Positions 39,007 to 49,783 of a stretch of 64,000 bases of DNA are shown piece after piece. The DNA comes from Zhihengliuella flava (GTDB taxonomy: Bacteria; Actinomycetota; Actinomycetes; Actinomycetales; Micrococcaceae). The stretch covers positions 2,356,001 through 2,420,000 of the forward strand of contig NZ_JADOTZ010000001.1 of assembly GCF_015751895.1 (NCBI RefSeq), given 5' to 3'. How positions within the stretch are numbered: position 1 is the first letter of the stretch; every line of letters starts with the position of its first letter. The position numbers were made by a program, and so were the translations under genes. The notes below the pieces were generated by a model. That model saw only the letters and a program-made list of their open reading frames with translations, was not told where the DNA came from and did not search any database.

Positions 39007-39906
39007 TTAGGGGCCCAGCCGGGCGGAGTCGAGAATGCCGCTCTCAAGAATATTAATCACGGCCGGCCCCATCACCACGATGAAGATCGTGGGAAAGATG
39101 AAGAACAGCAACGGGAAGAGGATCTTCACGGGCAGCTTCATGGCCTTCTCTTCCGCGCGTTGGCGCCGCTTGACGCGCATCTGCGCGGCCTGAGTGGCCA
39201 GCACCCGGCTGATCCCGATGCCGTAGCGGTCCGCCTGGGTCACCGCCCGGACGAAGGACGCCAGATCTTGGCAGGTGCTGCGGTCGGCCATGGCTTGATA
39301 GGCCTCGCTGCGCGACCGCCCAACCTGCATTTCCTGAAGCGTACGGGACATCTCCTCGGCCATCGGCCCCGTGCCCCGCGCAGCAACGCGTGACATAGCC
39401 TGCTCGAGTCCCAGCCCGGCCTCGACGGAGATCAGTAACTGGTCCAGCACGTTCGGTAGCTCCAACTGCAAGGCTTCTTGGCGCTTGAGCGCAGCGTTGA
39501 GCAGGAGCAGGTCCGGCAAGAAGTATCCGAGCGCCACGAGCAGGATCCACGCCAACACCGTGGCCGGGGCGGGAGAACTCCAGACGACGAGCCCGCCGAG
39601 GCCGAAGCCCGCGATGGCCAAGAGCGGCTTGGCGCTGAGGATCCGCTCCAGCGGCCATGCGGCGGGCCGTCCAGCGCGTGCGAGCTGCCGGTCCAAGCCA
39701 GCAGCGTAGGTGCCCGGCGTGAGCCGGCGAGCCAACGCGAGGAATTCACCGCCCCGGGCCGCGGGCGCCGCGTCAGGCGAGCTGACGCGCGTGAGGTTTT
39801 GTTGGACCAGTGAGACTGACCGTCGGTCGACGGCGATCAGCCCGTACGTGAGGACCGCTACGGGCACCACCGTTAGCACTAGGGCCAGCCATCCAAACCA
39901 CGTCAT
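39007..39906 (-). CDS. tadC: Tad pilus assembly protein TadC (type II secretion F-like)
   Basis: This protein of about 299 aa is an inner-membrane platform subunit of a Tad (tight adherence) pilus machine. Membrane segments are seen at the N-terminus, in the middle (two adjacent) and near the C-terminus. The T2SF domain core is represented by LPNVLDQLLISVEAGLGLEQAM and RYGIGISRVLATQA. The ATG at 39906 is preferred because AGGGG lies 10 nt upstream; a GTG at 39915 is possible. It is the last gene of the operon and faces truA tail to tail. Confidence 0.9.
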   Translation of the reverse strand: MTWFGWLALVLTVVPVAVLTYGLIAVDRRSVSLVQQNLTRVSSPDAAPAARGGEFLALARRLTPGTYAAGLDRQLARAGRPAAWPLERILSAKPLLAIAGFGLGGLVVWSSPAPATVLAWILLVALGYFLPDLLLLNAALKRQEALQLELPNVLDQLLISVEAGLGLEQAMSRVAARGTGPMAEEMSRTLQEMQVGRSRSEAYQAMADRSTCQDLASFVRAVTQADRYGIGISRVLATQAAQMRVKRRQRAEEKAMKLPVKILFPLLFFIFPTIFIVVMGPAVINILESGILDSARLGP

Positions 39907-39919
39907 CGTTGTCACGCCC

Positions 39920-40866
39920 CTAAAACTCGATCCGAATCATCCGATGCAGCACGATCGAGCCGATGATGATCAGCAGCGCGCCGACGACCAGCAGCAGGAT
40001 CCCGATCGGGTGGCTGACCAACGTCCCGACGTAGTCGGGGTTCATCACGGACATGATGGCGGCGAGGGCGAAGGGCAGCGCGATGAGGATGTAGGCGGAG
40101 ATGCGCCCTTCGGCCGAGAGGGCCCGGACCTGCCCCTTGATCTCGGCCCGTTCGCGAATCGTTTGACCGACCTGATCGAGGACGCGGGCTAGATCCCCAC
40201 CGACCTCACGGTTGATGCGGATGGCCTCAGCGACCCACGCGAAGTCCTCCGAACGCATGCGCGCAGCGGCTTCCTGCATCGTGATTTCCAGATTCCGGCC
40301 CACCCGGGCCTCGTTGACGACGCGGCTGAGGACTTCGTTCATCGGAGCAGCGAACTCGCGGGCCGCGCCGTCGAGTGCGCGTACCACCGAGTGCCCTGCG
40401 CGGAGGCTGCCAGCGAGCGTCATGAGGAGGTCCGGCAGCTGATCGTCGAACGCGGAGCGCCGCCGTTCGGCACGCACCCGGAGGGTGACGAGCACGGCGA
40501 CCGGAGCCGCGGCGACACCGAGGAGGGCCGCGATGAAGCCGCCCAGCACCCATCCGGCTGTGCCCGCCACGACGGACGCGATGATCGTCAAAACCATCAT
40601 TTCCGCTGGCGCCCGGCGGATCCCAGCGTCCTCCAGCGCATCGGCGCCCAGCCAGCCACCGCCGTTGGCCCCGATCCGGGTGTCCACGGCGGTCACGGCG
40701 GCCTGGCCCAGCCGGGCCATCGGCGAGGAGGAACCCACCGTCGCCGTGGGACGCCGTCGTTCCCTAGGGACCAACGAGGTGGCGGGTCGTAGCAACACGA
40801 GCACCGCGAGCGCGAGGGCCGCCACGGAGCTCGCGAGCCCGCCGAGCAGGAACCACGCTGCGCCGT

Positions 40867-40870
<4 letters not shown>
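39920..40870 (-). CDS. tadB: Tad pilus assembly protein TadB (type II secretion F-like)
   Basis: TadB (316 aa) is the second polytopic platform protein of the Tad machine. Hydrophobic segments occur at the N-terminus, around residues 100-130 and at the C-terminus. The T2SF core is visible in [19 protein letters not shown], followed by [20 protein letters not shown]. It overlaps the tadA stop by four bases (ATGA), which indicates translational coupling. Confidence 0.92.
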
Positions 40871-42413
<1,543 letters not shown>

Positions 42414-42417
<4 letters not shown>

Positions 42418-43610
42418 GAGATGACCTCCCGTCGATGCTGTTGGCGCAGTTGCGCCCGTTCTTCCGTGTCGAAGCGCTTGACCAGCTTGGTCAGGCCCCG
42501 CCAGGCGCCGTCGTGCCGCCCCTCGGCCACGTGAGGTACGCCGCGATTCGTGCTCAGCGGCAGGGTGCGGGACCGCGGGATCACCACGTCAACGGGCGTT
42601 CCGAGGCTGGACTCAATGTCAGCGACCGTCAGACCGCTGCGCTTGTCCGCGAAGTTCAGGACGGTGTGCCGGCCTCGGGGGAGTAGGTCCAATTCGCGGA
42701 GCACGGACTGCGCCTCGGCCATGCCCCGGACGCTGGGCACGTCCATGCCGCACACCCACACCGCCGCCGTCGCCCGTTCTAGAGCGGTGAGGAGGTGTTC
42801 TCCGAGGCCAGGTGCCGTGTCAACGACCACGAACTCGAACTCGGTGGTCAGCTGATCGATCAGGTTGCCGATCTGCGTAGTGCTTAGTTGATCCCCATCG
42901 CTCGGCGTGCGCGGTCCGCACAGCGCGTAGATGCCCTGTTCCGTCCGGCTCAGGTACGCCTTCAGGACCATCGTGTCGTGCGCCGCCGAGTTGTAGACGG
43001 CATCGGTGATGACGTGCTTCGGGTCGATATTCAGCGCGGTGGCCACATCGCCGAACTGCAGGTCGAGATCCACGATGACGACCTTTTGCGGGGTGAGGCT
43101 ATTCAGCCCCACCGCGAGGTTCGTGGAGACAGTGGTCTTGCCAACACCTCCCTTCGGGGACATGACGAGGACGACGTCGCCGCGGCGCCCACCGCTCTCC
43201 GGTTCGGTGCGCTGCCGGCGGCGTTCCGCGAGGTGGCAGGATCGTTCGAGCGCCACCCGGAGCTGGTCGCTGTCCACGCCCGCGGGGAGCACCTCGCGGA
43301 TACCGGCGCGCATGGCCGACCGCAGCACGTCCGGGTCCTGAGCCGCCTCCGTCACGAGGATCACGGCCACGTCCGGTGCGATGCCGGTCAGTTCCGTGGC
43401 CCGCAGCAGCGCCGCCTCGAGCGGGACGTCCGCTCCCAGCAGCACGGCGTCGGTCGGCTCCCCGATGCTTCGGCGCAGGATGTCGGCGGCCGGCGCGGCG
43501 AGTGCGGAGGCGCTCAGCCGGTAGCAGGTGCCCGGGAGAACGCCGTCGGCGGCGTGGATGACGCGAGGCTCTAAGGTGTTCGAATCCGAGATGATGAGGA
43601 AGCGGCTCAT
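42414..43610 (-). CDS. cpaE: Tad pilus localisation ATPase CpaE/TadZ (ParA/MinD-like)
   Basis: CpaE/TadZ (398 aa) positions Tad machines in the cell. The N-terminal 120 or so residues look like a degenerate response-regulator receiver (VILVTEAAQDPDVLRSAMRA). A ParA/MinD ATPase follows with the deviant Walker A SPKGGVGKTTVSTNLA and the motif IVDLDLQFGDVA. The ATG at 43610 overlaps the cpaB stop (ATGA). The longer in-frame ORF upstream runs antiparallel to cpaB coding sequence in another frame and is not coding. Confidence 0.93.
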
Positions 43611-44377
43611 CGGAGCACCTCCTGCACGTCCCAGTCCTGGACCTCGGCTTCCGACGTGCTCTCGCTCTGCTTGGTCAGCCACGTCAGGCCGAAGTCCTGC
43701 GTGAAGATGATGCGGCCAGCCTGATCCGCGTCGACCGCGAAGGTCACGAACGCAGAGCCGCTCGGCAAGGCGGACACGCCGTCTGGGGCCACCGCGTCCG
43801 TTTGCTGCGGCGTCGCGATCTGCACGCCCGTCACCAAGACCTGCTCCATGAGCAGGCTCGTCCGATCCACCGTCGTCGTCCCGTCCGCTTGCGTGTCCGA
43901 TTCCTCGGCGTCGGTGATGCGGAGTTCGTAATTGCCGTAGATCGCGACCCGGTCCCCGGCGCGGATCTTGCCGCCGACCACGCGGGCGGGGTCGAGGACC
44001 ACGGTGACCTCCTGCAGGCCCGCGGGGACCGACACCGTGCCGGGTTCCAGCTGCTCCTCGGGGTCCACCAGCTTGGTCTCCAGCAATTGTTCGCCGGCTA
44101 GCAGGGGGTGGGCGAGCACCAGGCCCTGCTGACCATCGAGGCTGCTCAGGGCTCCCTCCGCCACGGCCGTCGCCGGCAGCGTGGAGGCTTCGAGGTACTC
44201 GCCGAGATCCTCGACGGCGGTCCCCTCCGGGGCATCGACGACGGCGACAAGCACCTCCTGCGGGTCCAAGCCGTCCTGGGCGCGGCGGTCCGCTGCGCCC
44301 ACGTAGGCGAAGAGCAGTACTGCGCCCACGACGGCTAAGACGAAGGCGGCGATGCCGCCGATGATTCTGCCGTTCAC
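43607..44377 (-). CDS. cpaB: Tad pilus assembly protein CpaB/RcpC
   Basis: This 256-aa protein has a single N-terminal membrane anchor (residues 5-28) and a SAF-like domain with ALSSLDGQQGLVLAHPLLAG and RIRAGDRVAIYGNYE-type segments (here KIRAGDRVAIYGNYE). CpaB/RcpC proteins act in the periplasmic or wall-side part of Tad systems; in a Gram-positive it would sit outside the membrane. It is separated from tadG by about 65 bp and overlaps cpaE. Confidence 0.88.
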   Translation of the reverse strand: MNGRIIGGIAAFVLAVVGAVLLFAYVGAADRRAQDGLDPQEVLVAVVDAPEGTAVEDLGEYLEASTLPATAVAEGALSSLDGQQGLVLAHPLLAGEQLLETKLVDPEEQLEPGTVSVPAGLQEVTVVLDPARVVGGKIRAGDRVAIYGNYELRITDAEESDTQADGTTTVDRTSLLMEQVLVTGVQIATPQQTDAVAPDGVSALPSGSAFVTFAVDADQAGRIIFTQDFGLTWLTKQSESTSEAEVQDWDVQEVLR

Positions 44378-44442
44378 TGGTCCCCCTCAATGTTGGCGCC
44401 CTGCGGACGCGATGCTGGTTGGTGAGTCCTGGTGAGATGCCG

Positions 44443-45474
44443 TTACTCGATGAGAGCGGGCGGAACGGTGACGCCGTAGTCAATCCCGCCGCCTCCGCCC
44501 AGCTCGTCCGGCTCGTAGATCTCCACGAATTTTCCGTAGACGCCGCGGCAGCTGCCCGTGCACCCGGCGGGGAGGGAGGCGTTGTTGGGGTATTGGTCCG
44601 GCGATCCACCGCCGGAGAACTTCCACGCCTCGATCTCGAAGGCGGCCACGCCGGTGATTTCCCATTCGACGTTGGAGCCGGTGAGGCCGTTCGAATCGGA
44701 AATAACGGGGAAGTACACCGTGGTGGCGCCCGCGGCGTCGATGGCGGTGATCCAGTCCTCCAGCGTCTCTTGGCAGATGGCCTTGACCCCGCCCGAGGCC
44801 GGCATGGAGTTACCGGTGTCGCCGGGGTACATCACGCCGTCGTCCACGTCGATGTGGACCTCGCAATTGCCGTCCGGGTCCAGCCAGCCCCAGTTGCCCG
44901 GGATGGCGTTGCCGTGGGGGTTGCAGGGGCTGGCGGCGTACGTCAGCCAGCCGGCCGTGTCGCTTCCCGAGGCGAGGAAATCCGCTAGGGCGCACTCTGA
45001 AAAGGCGAGCGGAAACGTGAAGTCCCCGATGGTGGGGCCACCCCAGGCCGCGACGGCCCGGGCGCGGACGCCCACGGTGTCCGTGCCGAAGAGTTGACCG
45101 AACCAGACGGCGGACCCATTGGCGTCGGGGCCGCCCGCCTCGCGGGCCTCGGTCACCACGGTGACCGTCTGGGCGGACAAGTCGATGGTGGTCAGCGCGG
45201 CGGCGGCGCCGTCGGCAGCATTCGCCGCCGAGAGGGAGGAGCCTAACGCGGAGTCGGTGGTGCAGTCCGGTGAGGCGGCGTCGGCCGCGCAGGCGTTCGC
45301 GACGCCGAGGGCCGCTGCGTCGGCCCCATTCTGTAGCTCCGCGCGGTCCCAAAAAAGCTTGCCGACGTCGACCGCGAGGGCCACAAAAAGGAGCAGGATG
45401 ATCATGAGTCCCGCGACCAGGACGGAGGATCCTCCGCGCTCGCCGGCCCACTCACGGTGCGTTAGCCTTCGCAT
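44443..45474 (-). CDS. tadG: TadG-like pseudopilin/pilus assembly protein
   Basis: This 343-aa protein has the N-terminal arrangement of TadG: a basic start with RGGSSVLVAGLMIILLLFV, one membrane segment, then VGKLFWDRAELQNGADAAALG, the typical helix of the TadE/G-like domain. The extracellular part has several cysteines, probably disulfide-bonded, and no von Willebrand A domain that I can see. The ATG at 45474 lies inside the end of tadE (13-bp overlap). An upstream in-frame extension would only overlap tadE and is rejected. Confidence 0.88.
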   Translation of the reverse strand: MRRLTHREWAGERGGSSVLVAGLMIILLLFVALAVDVGKLFWDRAELQNGADAAALGVANACAADAASPDCTTDSALGSSLSAANAADGAAAALTTIDLSAQTVTVVTEAREAGGPDANGSAVWFGQLFGTDTVGVRARAVAAWGGPTIGDFTFPLAFSECALADFLASGSDTAGWLTYAASPCNPHGNAIPGNWGWLDPDGNCEVHIDVDDGVMYPGDTGNSMPASGGVKAICQETLEDWITAIDAAGATTVYFPVISDSNGLTGSNVEWEITGVAAFEIEAWKFSGGGSPDQYPNNASLPAGCTGSCRGVYGKFVEIYEPDELGGGGGIDYGVTVPPALIE

Positions 45475-45869
45475 TGCATGGCCCCCTTGGCGCCGATCTG
45501 TGCGGGTAAGGGGAAGAGCCCCAGCAGGGCGTCGTTGGCGCCCGCAATGGTCACCGTGACGGTGGTGCCGGCCGGGCATCCCGCGGTGGAGGCTACGGCG
45601 GAGTCGATGGTCAGGGTGGGGGAGCCGGCGTTGGCGACCGACAGTAGGTCAAAGCCGGGCTCGTCGTGATGGAGCACGTGGGCCCTCGCGGCAGCGCGCG
45701 CGCCCTGCGTGGCGGAAATCTGTTGGTTGAAGTACCAGGCGTACTCCAGTACCCCAAAAATCAGCGTGAGGAGAATCGGGACGATCAAGGCGAACTCGAC
45801 GGCCGAGGCGCCGGATTCGGCGCGTGGCCGGCCGGTTCGGTGCTGTTGCGAGCCCATGATGCTCCTCAC
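45462..45869 (-). CDS. tadE: TadE-like minor pseudopilin
   Basis: TadE (135 aa) is a minor pilin-like subunit. SGASAVEFALIVPILLTLIF is a class-III prepilin-type signal: a Gly followed by a hydrophobic segment with Glu at the fifth position after cleavage. After the membrane helix comes the exported domain with two cysteines. MGSQQHR five codons downstream is an alternative start. It overlaps tadG. Confidence 0.9.
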   Translation of the reverse strand: MRSIMGSQQHRTGRPRAESGASAVEFALIVPILLTLIFGVLEYAWYFNQQISATQGARAAARAHVLHHDEPGFDLLSVANAGSPTLTIDSAVASTAGCPAGTTVTVTIAGANDALLGLFPLPAQIGAKGAMQCEG

Positions 45870-45938: not shown

Positions 45939-46148
45939 CTACGGGACGAGCGCATCCAGTTCTGCTCCGATGCGGATCCAAAGTTCATTGAGCGCTCCGG
46001 TCATGACTCCGGCGCCGATCAGGACGACCAGCGAAATGATGCCGATGGTTAGGCCGTATTCGACGGCGGTGGCGCCCTTTTCGTCGCGGCGCAGGCGGGA
46101 GCCCAGCGTCTCGAGCGCGAGGTAGATGTTGGCGAGGAACGTGTTCAT
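45939..46148 (-). CDS. flp: Flp/Fap-type major pilin
   Basis: This 69-aa prepilin should form the Tad pilus fibre. It has the Flp signature: a basic N-terminus, then RRDEKGATAVEYGLTIGIIS, with predicted cleavage after the Gly before ATAVEYGL and the conserved Glu-Tyr pair. The ATG at 46148 (MNTFLANIYL) follows AGGGG; an ATG 18 bp upstream is possible. No prepilin peptidase (TadV) is in the window, so processing must depend on an enzyme elsewhere. First gene of the operon. Confidence 0.94.
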   Translation of the reverse strand: MNTFLANIYLALETLGSRLRRDEKGATAVEYGLTIGIISLVVLIGAGVMTGALNELWIRIGAELDALVP

Positions 46149-46300
46149 GGTGCTAACCCCTGTCAATCGGTGGCGTCACTGCCGCGGCGCCGGTGGTGCG
46201 GATTCTGGATGAGGGGAGTTGCGGAGCCTTCCCGTTGCTGGGTGGCGCGTGACCTGGCTGGCCGGCCCGCACGGTCCCCGACCGCTGCGTCTGATTTGGG

Positions 46301-46329
46301 ACAGTAGGAGTGTTCCGCGGGGCTGTCTA
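46301..46329 (-). promoter_or_regulatory. Tad operon promoter
   Basis: On the minus strand TAGACA (46329-46324) and TACTGT (46306-46301) are 17 bp apart, matching the pattern of the rpoB promoter. The predicted start leaves a leader of about 145 nt before flp. It is about 210 bp from the repeated TACGGGGA sites. Confidence 0.6.
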
Positions 46330-46396
46330 GGGATACGAGGGCTTTGGAATTTCTCACCAACAGGTTGTTTTAAGTAATTTGCGCGGAGAGGTATTG

Positions 46397-46415
46397 GTCG
46401 TGGATTATTCACGAC
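46397..46415. promoter_or_regulatory. dyad GTCGTG-7-CACGAC
   Basis: A perfect 6-bp inverted repeat with a 7-bp AT-rich centre lies about 70 bp upstream of the Tad promoter. Its form fits a dimeric DNA-binding protein; the factor is unknown. Confidence 0.45.
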
Positions 46416-46536
46416 ATACTTCGGGAAATCTTGAGAATGTCGGAAACGCGCTTCAGTTGAAGGTTTATGTACTGGACGACAGGGATGACGATGCGGCCAG
46501 GCATCTGGCGCTTGCGGTGCTTGCCTGCCACGAGAT

Positions 46537-46663
46537 TCCCCGTAGTTTATCCCGTACCTGCAGGTCATGCGGCCCGGGTGCTGGAGGGGAGGATGCCCTG
46601 GGGTACGGGGAAATGGGGCTCAAGTACGGGGAGATACGTGACGTTCTCTCGGGGGTACGTGAA
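46537..46663. promoter_or_regulatory. phased array of six TACGGGGA-like sites
   Basis: Core TACG(G/T)GRN sites occur on the plus strand at 46604, 46625, 46635 and 46656 (TACGGGGA, TACGGGGA, TACGTGAC, TACGTGAA), spaced 21, 10 and 21 bp. Two inverted copies end at 46544 (TACGGGGA) and 46556 (TACGGGAT). The spacing equals whole helical turns, as expected for cooperative binding of a regulator. They lie between the divergent Tad operon and LAL regulator gene. The rest of the ~700-bp region shows lower GC and no supported gene. Confidence 0.6.
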
Positions 46664-46844
46664 GCTTCAATAATCTATTGATGTCGCTTCTTTTTGGGTT
46701 CACCGTTGGTTTTAGTCGCCTTTCATAGGCGGTCGCCCCTCGCTAGTTCAATCCGGAGTTTTCCCTCCCCCCCCGATGCCTTCGGGTTGAGCTGGCGAGG
46801 GGATTTCTCTGCTCTCGAACCTGTTTTTTGTTGGGGTCGATCAC

Positions 46845-46850
46845 TACACT
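46845..46850 (+). promoter_or_regulatory. -10 box of LAL regulator gene, likely leaderless
   Basis: TACACT ends 8 nt before the ATG at 46859, so transcription would start at or within a base or two of the start codon. No ribosome binding site precedes the ATG. A T-rich stretch lies in the -35 zone without a clear hexamer. Confidence 0.45.
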
Positions 46851-46858
46851 CTTGTGGC

Positions 46859-49783
46859 ATGGGGGAGAGCATCGGGGATGGCAGGTTGATTGGCCGGGAC
46901 AGGGCCGTCGATCAGCTCAGCGCTGCCGTCGCCAGCGTCGCCCGCGGCGAGCATCGCTTTGTGGTGGTTGAAGGCCACGCGGGCGTCGGTAAATCCGCCG
47001 TCGTTTGGGCTGGACTCCATGCGGCTCAGCATTGGCCGCGCAAGTATGCCTCGCTGGTGCCCACCGACCTCCATGAACTCGGTTCTGCAGCATGCAAGCT
47101 CATCCCCGGGATGACCCCGGAACTGGCGGCGGACGTGCCCGTCGCCGTTGACTTTGCCTTGTCCGTCCTCGGCACGTTCGACGAGCCGACCGTCATCATC
47201 CTAGAAAACGGTCAGTGGATCGACGCGATCTCCACGGAGATCATGTCGGGGATCCTGCCCTATCTCAGCAACTACCCGGTGTTGTTTATCGGCACTACAC
47301 GCCCCTCGCTCGAAGATCCGGCGAAACGGTTGATTCACGCAGCGCTCGCGCCCGCGACCACGTCCTACATCGGATTGGCGCCCTTGACCGTCGACGAGAG
47401 CCGGGATCTGCTGGCCACACACCTCGGCGTGCCGCTCTCCCCAGCGCTGGCACACCGATTGCACCGCATCACCGGGGGCCTGCCGCTGCTCGTGGAAGAC
47501 GTCGCCCGCCTGCTGCAGGGAAACCGCCACGACGCGTCCGCTGTCGCGGAAGTTTTCGACGTCTTTGCTGCGCGTTCCTCACGACGCGTTCGCGACTTTG
47601 ACGCAACGGTGGCCGATGCGCTGACCTATCTCACGCCTGTGGGCCGTCATGTGGTGGAAACGCTCGCCGTGAGCCCGGTCGTCCTCACTCCTGCCCAGCT
47701 ACGCGCCGCCTGCGGGGTAGAACGCCTCGATCAACGGGAACTGATTGCTCTGCAAGAGGCGGACTTCATCCGCTGGGACGCGCCGCAACGTGGGTTTCGC
47801 ATTGCCCTCGAACCGATCGCTCAGGCAGTGCGGCAATGGGGCATGGCCCAGGACGAAGCTGTTCAGGGTGTTCTCGCGGCCATCGCCCCGCATCCGGCGG
47901 CGGAAGTGATGCGGTTTCTCGAGGGGCCCGCGACCGCGGGCGGCGTCACGACGATTCCCAGCGCCGTAGCGGAGCAAGCGCTCTCGCTCTTGGAGCGCCG
48001 TGTGCTCGACCCGCTCATGGAACTTCTGCAGGATTTGGTGCGCACGCACCCGGATGACGCCGTGTTGTCTCTTGTTCTTGCTGTCTGTTGGGACGAGCCC
48101 AGGGAGAGCTTCCGTGGCACCATCCGCTATGCGATGCGGGCAACGCGCAGCCCGTTCTTGGCTTCAGTGGCTCGAGCGCTCGAGAGCTTCACGAATGCCC
48201 GCTACGAGGCCGCGATCTCCTATCTGTTGGCGGCCGGTGATTCTAAACCGGACCACCCGGCCGCGGCCTATGCGTACCTCCGCGCCGTCGACCGCATCGC
48301 ACGCACTGATGCGGTGCGCGGAACGCTGCACTTAAGCCACGAGCTGCGCCGGCTGGCCTCAGCACAGCTGCGACGGCTGGAAGAGGAGCTGAGGGCCTCG
48401 GATCAGACGGACCTCGACGGATACGTGACTCAGCCTCGGCTCGGTGCGTTGCGGGCGAGCCTTCGGCTGTGGGAAGAATTGGCCGAGCTGGGCCCCGAGT
48501 TGGGCCACGTGCGTCCCGGCGAGTTCGCTGACCTGTCCCGTCGCCTCGTCAAACGGCTCGAAGCGGCCCCACACATCGAGGACGATGTGCTGGCCGTGAG
48601 GGTGTTTACGGCGGCGCGGGCCCGCGACTTTGGCGATCGGTCTTCCGTCGCCGCCATCCTCGCGCATCGGCCCGTGCTCGAGAACGGGACGGAAGAACTG
48701 GTGGCCGACGCCTACGGTCAGTTGGCGTTGACGTACTTCGACGCCGGGCAGTTTGACGGTGCCCAACGGTTCGCAGAGCTAGCCCGGGAACAAGCGTTCG
48801 GGACGGGGAACGCGGAACTGTTGCTGACGATGGTGGCCTTGGACGCCCTGGTTCCCGGGACACAGTACGGTGTGGCTGCGGTGAAGCGTACGTTGTCGAC
48901 AGCGGAACGTGATCCAGAGGTGCGGTGGTACCCCTTCGTGAATTTGGCGACGGCGTACGTGCGGGCTTGGGCGGCCACGGCCGACGGCGATCACGAGGAA
49001 GTCGTGGCGTCCCTCCTGCCCGTGTCCGACAACGTCCTCGGCTGGCAGCCCCTAGGCATGGCCGCGCTGACGCTCTTGGCGCGCTCGCAGTACTACGCCG
49101 GCGGAACGAGTGTCGCCACGGATTCACTGGGGCTTCTCCACAACCATCGCGTCGCGGCAACCGAGGCCGTCACTGCGTTCGTCACCGCCTACCTGCGTGC
49201 CCTGTCTACTGCGACGGACGATCCGCAGGCTGCAGCGCGGCACTACTCGATGGCGCTCGGTGCCTCCGCAGAGATTCCCAACATTGTGACGGAACAACCA
49301 GACGGGCGTGGTGGTGGCCTGCGTATCTACCGCGCGTTGGCGGCCTATGACTTCGGGCGCCTCATCGTGGAATCGGGCACAGCCCTGCAGGCCTACGCCA
49401 GCGAGGCCCTGCGGGGGGTTCTCTGCGCGGACCAGCTGTGGATCAGCTGTCATGCGACAACGCTTCGGGCCGGAAACTCGGCGCTGATCGGGCGGCTTCG
49501 GGAGCTAGCAGTTCATTCCACGAGCCTGGACGAGCCGTCCGAATCGAACGGGGTGGTTGCCGATGCACCCCAAGGATCGTCGGCAGATCTCACGGTGCTG
49601 TCGCGTCGCGAACGAGAGATCGGGACTCTCATTGGGCGCGGACTGATGAATCGGGAAATTGCAGATCGGCTCGTCATTTCTGTCAGGACCGCCGAGTACC
49701 ACGCGGCCAATATCGCGAAGAAGCTGCGGGTCGATTCCCGGGCCGAGGTGCGGCAGATTTTTTCCGGGGGGCGGCGCCGGTGA
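46859..49783 (+). CDS. LuxR-family (LAL-type) ATP-binding transcriptional regulator
   Basis: This 974-aa protein has the architecture of large ATP-binding LuxR (MalT/LAL) regulators. An AAA/STAND ATPase comes first, with Walker A GHAGVGKSAVVW near residue 43 and a Walker B-like VIILENGQWID. A long helical, TPR-like middle region follows. A C-terminal LuxR helix-turn-helix (about residues 910-970) contains LSRREREIGTLIGRGLMNRE, then IADRLVISVRTAEYHAANI. I start it at ATG 46859, where homology to the ATPase begins; an in-frame extension to 46694 crosses the promoter. It is divergent from the Tad operon and is the obvious candidate regulator of it (inference). The signal it senses is unknown. 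Confidence 0.9.
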   Translation: MGESIGDGRLIGRDRAVDQLSAAVASVARGEHRFVVVEGHAGVGKSAVVWAGLHAAQHWPRKYASLVPTDLHELGSAACKLIPGMTPELAADVPVAVDFALSVLGTFDEPTVIILENGQWIDAISTEIMSGILPYLSNYPVLFIGTTRPSLEDPAKRLIHAALAPATTSYIGLAPLTVDESRDLLATHLGVPLSPALAHRLHRITGGLPLLVEDVARLLQGNRHDASAVAEVFDVFAARSSRRVRDFDATVADALTYLTPVGRHVVETLAVSPVVLTPAQLRAACGVERLDQRELIALQEADFIRWDAPQRGFRIALEPIAQAVRQWGMAQDEAVQGVLAAIAPHPAAEVMRFLEGPATAGGVTTIPSAVAEQALSLLERRVLDPLMELLQDLVRTHPDDAVLSLVLAVCWDEPRESFRGTIRYAMRATRSPFLASVARALESFTNARYEAAISYLLAAGDSKPDHPAAAYAYLRAVDRIARTDAVRGTLHLSHELRRLASAQLRRLEEELRASDQTDLDGYVTQPRLGALRASLRLWEELAELGPELGHVRPGEFADLSRRLVKRLEAAPHIEDDVLAVRVFTAARARDFGDRSSVAAILAHRPVLENGTEELVADAYGQLALTYFDAGQFDGAQRFAELAREQAFGTGNAELLLTMVALDALVPGTQYGVAAVKRTLSTAERDPEVRWYPFVNLATAYVRAWAATADGDHEEVVASLLPVSDNVLGWQPLGMAALTLLARSQYYAGGTSVATDSLGLLHNHRVAATEAVTAFVTAYLRALSTATDDPQAAARHYSMALGASAEIPNIVTEQPDGRGGGLRIYRALAAYDFGRLIVESGTALQAYASEALRGVLCADQLWISCHATTLRAGNSALIGRLRELAVHSTSLDEPSESNGVVADAPQGSSADLTVLSRREREIGTLIGRGLMNREIADRLVISVRTAEYHAANIAKKLRVDSRAEVRQIFSGGRRR

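Follow-up and report, generated by a model that had tools for sequence, protein, structure and literature searches.

A conserved heptamer array between the tad operon and a divergent LAL regulator gene: a probable switch for pilus control in Zhihengliuella

A conserved array of short repeats, set between a tad pilus operon and a divergently transcribed LAL regulator gene, probably acts as the switch that controls the pilus in Zhihengliuella, a genus of the Micrococcaceae. We consider it reasonably likely, from sequence comparison and the precedents discussed below, that the array serves as operator for the LAL protein encoded beside it, which would bind there cooperatively and activate flp and the tad genes. 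The array was detected in a 64-kb stretch of DNA (the window) from the genome of Zhihengliuella flava, a single contig of 2.9 Mb that serves as the reference (G000) in a sample of five genomes of the genus (G000 to G004). It lies in a 710-bp intergenic region, with flp and the tad genes read leftward and the LAL gene rightward. The genes of the locus, and the predicted -10 element of the LAL gene, are:

39007..45869, minus strand: tad genes, namely TadE-like, Tad (TadE/G-like), TadZ/ParA-like, TadA ATPase (T2SSE) and two T2SSF (TadB/TadC)
45939..46148, minus strand: flp pilin gene, 69 aa, Flp_Fap (Pfam)
46845..46850, plus strand: predicted LAL -10 element TACACT, 13–14 bp before the ATG in all four species
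46859..49783, plus strand: LAL regulator, 974 aa, N-terminal AAA_16 ATPase and C-terminal LuxR (GerE) HTH

Pfam matches to Flp_Fap, T2SSE, two T2SSF, TadE and AAA_31/ParA identify the leftward genes as a Tad/Flp pilus locus. The rightward gene encodes a protein of the LAL class, which is large (974 aa) and has an N-terminal ATPase with a Walker A motif (AAA_16 match 2.8e-12; G39, G44, K45 and S46 invariant in four sequences), and its GerE match (2.7e-13, residues 968–1019 of a 1029-aa ORF) is that of a LuxR-type HTH. In a profile search against solved structures it was matched in the HTH only, best by NarL; the 30 sequences included no MalT chain. Its middle region is predicted to be helical, in an AlphaFold model that is poor (pLDDT 56). 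As TACACT lies only 13–14 bp before the LAL start codon, a leaderless mRNA would be expected, and the element is read here as suggesting one. No motif site was found at this predicted LAL core promoter.

The order of tad genes, flp and divergent LAL gene is identical in G001, G002 and G003, where the LAL orthologues share 53–57% identity with that of G000. Genome G004 has no LAL orthologue, no flp match at E<=0.001 and no match to the hairpin RNA described below; it retains TadA homologues at 38 and 41% identity. Two more TadA-like ATPase genes are found in G000 (G000:C1:489538-490446 and 1023506-1024522; 44 and 37% identity), and the other four genomes of the genus carry two distant TadA homologues each. 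The genus probably holds further, more distant Tad-like clusters.

Two inverted and four direct copies of a heptamer make up the array in G000:

46537..46544, minus strand: inverted site I1, TACGGGGA
46550..46556, minus strand: inverted site I2, TACGGGA; G000 and G003 match the motif here, G001 and G002 do not
46604..46611, plus strand: direct site B, TACGGGGA
46625..46632, plus strand: direct site C, TACGGGGA
46635..46641, plus strand: direct site D, TACGTGA; TACTGGA in G002, TACGAGT in G003
46656..46662, plus strand: direct site E, TACGTGA; TACGTGAA-N-CTTCAA invariant across four species

Sequence and pattern searches bear out how the initial annotation had described these sites: six copies of TACGKGR (the TACG(G/T)GRN core) occur in 127 bp, the four direct copies are spaced at exactly 21, 10 and 21 bp, the two inverted copies stand upstream of them, and three copies (I1, B and C) read exactly TACGGGGA. 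Periods of 10–11 and 21 bp would place B to E on about the same face of the helix. The 710-bp flp–LAL region of G000 contains six TACGKGR matches, where 5000 dinucleotide shuffles averaged 0.31 and never reached six, although the motif was derived from the G000 sequence itself and this P value alone is post hoc. Across the whole window the motif matches 30 times, or 24 times once the array is set aside, and shuffles give 16.5 matches on average; the motif is thus commoner window-wide than the shuffles predict and the shuffle means are somewhat low, which leaves the conclusion unaffected.

Conservation provides an independent test, since the motif was fixed in G000 and then counted in the relatives. 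The intergenic counts are 6 in G002, 6 in G001 and 5 in G003 (shuffle means 0.37, 0.33 and 0.38), and in each genome 0 of 5000 shuffles reached the count. With E taken as zero, B lies 52–53 bp, C 31–32 bp and D 21 bp away in all four genomes, while an extra site A is found 11 bp before B in G001 and G002. The distance from I1 to E is 118 bp in G000 and 106 bp in G001, G002 and G003. When G000 is compared with each relative in turn, the heptamers of B to E are identical at 25 of 28 letters and the spacers at 8–10 of 31 (ungapped comparison, better of two end anchors); among the relatives, which are closer to one another, spacer identity is 25/32, 20/31 and 16/31 and the contrast between motif and spacer is weaker. 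The 28 sites yield the consensus TACG(G/T/A)G(G/A), from a motif table that omits the non-matching site A (G000 and G003) and I2 (G001 and G002), keeps degenerate copies of C, D, F and I1, and in G003 assigns CTCGTA to I1 and CCCCGTA to I2, a chosen pairing. Retained sites amid diverged spacers read as the footprint of binding. The initial annotation had made its proposal depend on motif and spacing being conserved in relatives with the same regulator, and the array is indeed present at 4 of 4 LAL-bearing tad loci.

A seventh site, F, which was absent from the initial annotation, belongs to the set and lies immediately upstream of a predicted flp promoter:

46301..46306, minus strand: predicted flp -10 element TACTGT
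46324..46329, minus strand: predicted flp -35 element TAGACA; TAGACA in G000 and G002, TGGACA in G001 and G003
46334..46340, plus strand: site F, TACGAGG in G000 and TACGGGG in G001, G002 and G003; its centre falls at -43 with respect to the predicted flp promoter

On the flp strand, 4 of 4 species show the same succession of F, T(A/G)GACA, a spacer of 17 or 18 bp and TANNNT, 152–154 bp before the ATG. The predicted -10 element (TACTGT, TACGCT, TACGCT and TAAGCT in G000, G002, G001 and G003, with spacers of 17, 17, 17 and 18 bp) is the sole TANNNT between F and flp in each species. A sigma-70 promoter scan with a stricter consensus returned no promoters in this region. If the usual distance from -10 element to start is assumed, F is centred at -43, -43, -43 and -44 from the predicted flp start, which in G000 would be near 46294. 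A centre near -43 is the position of activators that contact sigma. The conserved placement of F upstream of a predicted -35 element favours control of the pilus operon, and F is the strongest link between the motif and that operon, via a promoter that is itself predicted. F is 237–322 bp from the direct sites, and together with B to E it reproduces, in four species, the MalT-type layout of several asymmetric direct boxes with one of them promoter-proximal, the promoter here being predicted.

MalT has several sites in the divergent mal region. Of the LAL proteins it is the best known; it is a STAND ATPase and, as a multimer, is described as binding MalT boxes cooperatively (PMC4381067). By analogy, an inducer together with ATP would bring the Zhihengliuella LAL protein, itself a STAND ATPase of MalT type that carries a LuxR HTH, into a multimeric form. 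The multimer would bind cooperatively to the same-face direct heptamers TACG(G/T)G(A/G) of B to E, joined by A in two relatives. The complex would also occupy site F, bridging or looping over about 240–320 bp, and F-bound LAL could then recruit RNA polymerase for transcription of flp and the tad operon. Through the inverted pair I1/I2 and the rightward elements, this complex may also act on the RNA hairpin and the LAL gene. While the sites, their spacing and conservation, the placement of F and the co-occurrence with LAL were read directly from the genomes, we infer LAL binding, activation, cooperativity, looping and an inducer, as well as any autoregulation.

The most probable alternative, which is compatible with this scheme, is that the array chiefly drives rightward transcription, of the RNA with the C8 loop, the LAL gene or both, and that F alone controls flp. 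In its favour, the array is closer to LAL than to the flp start, the spacing between site E and a downstream TTGNTG element is fixed in four species, and hairpins start about 60–80 bp downstream of E in G000. We regard it as possible, on the doubtful side: a TANNNT 18 bp after TTGTTG is present only in G001 and G002, and the array sites are oriented like F relative to flp. The structured elements beside the array are:

46667..46681, no strand assigned: dyad TCAATA-3-TATTGA, directly 3′ of site E, found by eye; helix 1, 89.3% of cells paired
46715..46733, plus strand: small hairpin preceding the one with the C loop; helix 2, pairing in 100% of cells
46736..46802, plus strand: long hairpin whose loop (46767-46774) is C8, with a U-rich stretch after it; helix 3

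The dyad is TCAACAA-4-TTGTTGA in G001 and G002, with another loop length, and imperfect in G003, while the loop of eight C residues is C9 in G001. The region folds more stably than its shuffles (z of -5.3 in G000, -4.6 in G002, -3.1 in G001 and -3.5 in G003). Across the 39 pairs of the dyad and the small and long hairpins, 94.2% of cells pair and 6 pairs changed on both sides, against 34–48% and 0–2 such pairs in a slid-alignment control, for four sequences from which the structure was itself derived. A covariance model built from the four genomes recovers those four, by construction; under strict filters that weak relatives could escape, it matched none of the remaining 391 of 395 genomes of the family and none of the remaining 383 of 386 of the order. 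Rfam families had no match to the hairpin region. The hairpin could function either as a small RNA or as a leader terminator, and the C8-loop hairpin is possibly a new RNA without an Rfam family; a terminator scan returned none here under a rule limited to loops of 3–8 that is blind to this hairpin. The 6C RNA (RF01066) is an actinobacterial RNA with C-rich loops. The hairpin resembles it in the C-rich loop, but RF01066 had no match here (none at E<=1 in 46100-46960, and none at E<=0.001 in G000), and this identity was discarded. Targets at the flp start and the LAL 5′ end were likewise rejected, as the duplexes computed there for the C-rich loop in four species were energetically no better than those with 500 mononucleotide shuffles of the target (fraction as low or lower, 0.15 to 0.70). 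In G000 the loop has a 9-nt complementarity to LAL codons, which was not seen by eye in the relatives. As a parallel for a regulator of this kind acting on an RNA, a MalT-controlled small RNA from the malK 5′ region has been described in Vibrio (PMC8265627).

Another regulator, such as a NarL/FixJ-type response regulator or a protein of SARP/OmpR type, could bind the array in place of LAL. SARP operators are heptameric direct repeats with 10–11 bp periods that resemble the array, and those of PimR are described as heptamers with 3–4 nt spacers in units of 10–11 bp (PMC5930380). Other LuxR-type HTH proteins, candidate alternative binders, are encoded in the genomes of the genus. Each genome of the genus has either both this flp and LAL or neither, so their joint occurrence does not distinguish a LAL operator from that of another regulator, and because of this co-occurrence the present rival most deserves a test. 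We nevertheless judge it quite unlikely, given that LAL is the regulator gene adjoining the array in 4 of 4 genomes and that the binder looks bound to one locus. The genome search for spaced pairs that had been proposed initially found TACGGGGA twice at 21 bp at one place in the 2.9 Mb of G000, and of three TACGKGR pairs at 21 bp in that genome two are in the array. Looser TACGKGR pairs number nine in G000, four at the locus and five outside, against four for a reversed-pattern control; outside the locus, the five genomes together hold 21 pairs, which barely exceeds the control of 16 (5/4, 4/3, 3/2, 7/3 and 2/4 from G000 to G004). The bulk of the pair excess in G000 is this locus, and a few other sites are possible; a wider regulon is unsupported at the level of TACGKGR pairs (21 against 16). 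Some outside pairs are common to two or three relatives, and a near-identical TACGTGG...TACGGGG stretch, which may be coding, occurs outside the tad locus at G001:C1:1081760, G002:C19:2693 and G003:C14:30435.

Within the family, one flp locus per genome was scanned for 30 loci (4 of the genus and 26 others) from 171 genomes with an flp match, and the array was found at 0 of the 26 other family loci; isolated sites (one or two, within 1 kb) occur at 4 of them, and no significant LAL similarity was detected within 1.5 kb on each side of the 26 (best E 0.66). A search of the order at E<=1e-60 recovered LAL orthologues in 3 of 396 genomes, all of the genus, while a family search at E<=1e-40 gave 17 of 395 genomes, 13 of them outside the genus at 25–29% identity. 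The 14 out-of-genus LAL loci in those 13 genomes have no flp, TadE, TadA or TadB match at E<=0.01 within 13–15 kb; TadZ is matched weakly at two of them (E 0.008 and 0.004). A scan of genome contigs with two peptide patterns gave matches in the relatives Kocuria polaris MS50-16 and Zhihengliuella salsuginis.

The sign of control could also be reversed, with LAL as a repressor: its complex, bound both at the array and at F, would form a loop that keeps flp off until an inducer releases it. Distant paired sites (F to the direct sites, 237–322 bp) have a looping geometry, and SCO6993, a Streptomyces LAL described as a negative regulator (PMC9628970), makes repression possible in the family. We find this decidedly unlikely, as F lies upstream of the -35 element in the position of an activator, not over the promoter core, and MalT is described as an activator (PMC4381067). 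Finally, that the repeats are due to chance or a by-product of coding, as part of a reading frame or neutral, might be argued from a 100-aa ORF (46379-46681) that overlaps the array in G000 and from 21 bp being 7 codons, but its probability is negligible and a coding origin is rejected, because the ORF, judged spurious, has no Pfam match, the 160-nt array stretch has stops in 6 of 6 frames in G002 and 5 of 6 in G001 and G003, the 10/11 spacing disrupts the frame and the sites are retained while the spacers diverge. The shuffle counts given above also contradict this reading.

With LAL as the preferred binder, the closest known systems differ in site and target. The MalT system is alike in its large ATPase-LuxR regulator and in short, asymmetric direct sites, one near -35 (PMC4381067, PMC7567727). 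Here the site is TACGKGR instead of GGGGA(T/G)GAGG, a box not recovered over the 28 sites, the target is a Tad pilus, and the heptamers are spaced at 21, 10–11 and 21 bp with a remote site at -43. The actinobacterial MalT motif is reported to overlap -35, and that of Actinoplanes is an inverted repeat with a 5-nt gap at -35 (PMC7567727), so direct repeats are no rule for such regulators. TpdR, an actinobacterial LAL that controls tpdABC in Rhodococcus jostii TMP1, likewise has direct repeats in front of its target. They lie at -79/-65 and -51/-37, and activity requires one of them; they are two 15-nt repeats, TnnAAnnGCGGAnTC, with 13 nt between, the operon is catabolic, and binding was likewise inferred, from mutants (PMC6099782). 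In Streptomyces, the SARP-LAL protein PimR and the LuxR-family MilO have heptameric or 11-bp direct repeats with a period of about one turn, three in the case of MilO, 142 bp upstream of the start of its target (PMC5930380, PMC11784345). PimR binds through its SARP domain, without a LuxR HTH (PMC5930380), and the sequences described for the two, CGGCAAG and TGTCNNNCGGT, belong to antibiotic clusters. IniR of mycobacteria is an ATPase-LuxR STAND regulator described as specific for iniBAC (PMC5760070); its target is another, and the Zhihengliuella LAL falls outside its family model (NCBIfam NF038181, 49.3 bits against a cut-off of 750). In Micrococcus luteus, the tad genes of Mlut_14640-14670 also have a divergent gene for a DNA-binding protein, but this is an HTH_17 protein, not a LAL, and the excerpts of that account describe no such array (PMC8467076). 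Titles and opening lines of abstracts among the matches listed describe no such site for a tad locus, in line with the initial annotation. Direct-repeat operators of LAL and LuxR proteins are already known; what is new is the sequence of the site and its pilus target.

A ComEC-type competence protein is encoded in 5 of 5 genomes of the genus, including G004, which combines it with distant TadA homologues and has no close flp or LAL. In the related Micrococcus luteus (Micrococcaceae), Tad/Flp pilus genes are reported to be required for natural transformation, and the same sources indicate that Tad/Flp regulation in Actinobacteria is little known (PMC4322843, PMC8467076). For Zhihengliuella, a candidate regulator, its putative operator sites and a predicted pilin promoter can now be placed to the base, which makes control of the pilus directly testable. 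A broader and rather unlikely version is a genus-specific, self-contained switch, in which a STAND ATPase that serves a single Tad operon would work through a new phased operator and would also drive, from the same divergent region, a new small RNA with the C8 loop, giving two layers of control. If such a two-layer switch were true, pilus production, and possibly DNA uptake, would be under both transcriptional and RNA control.
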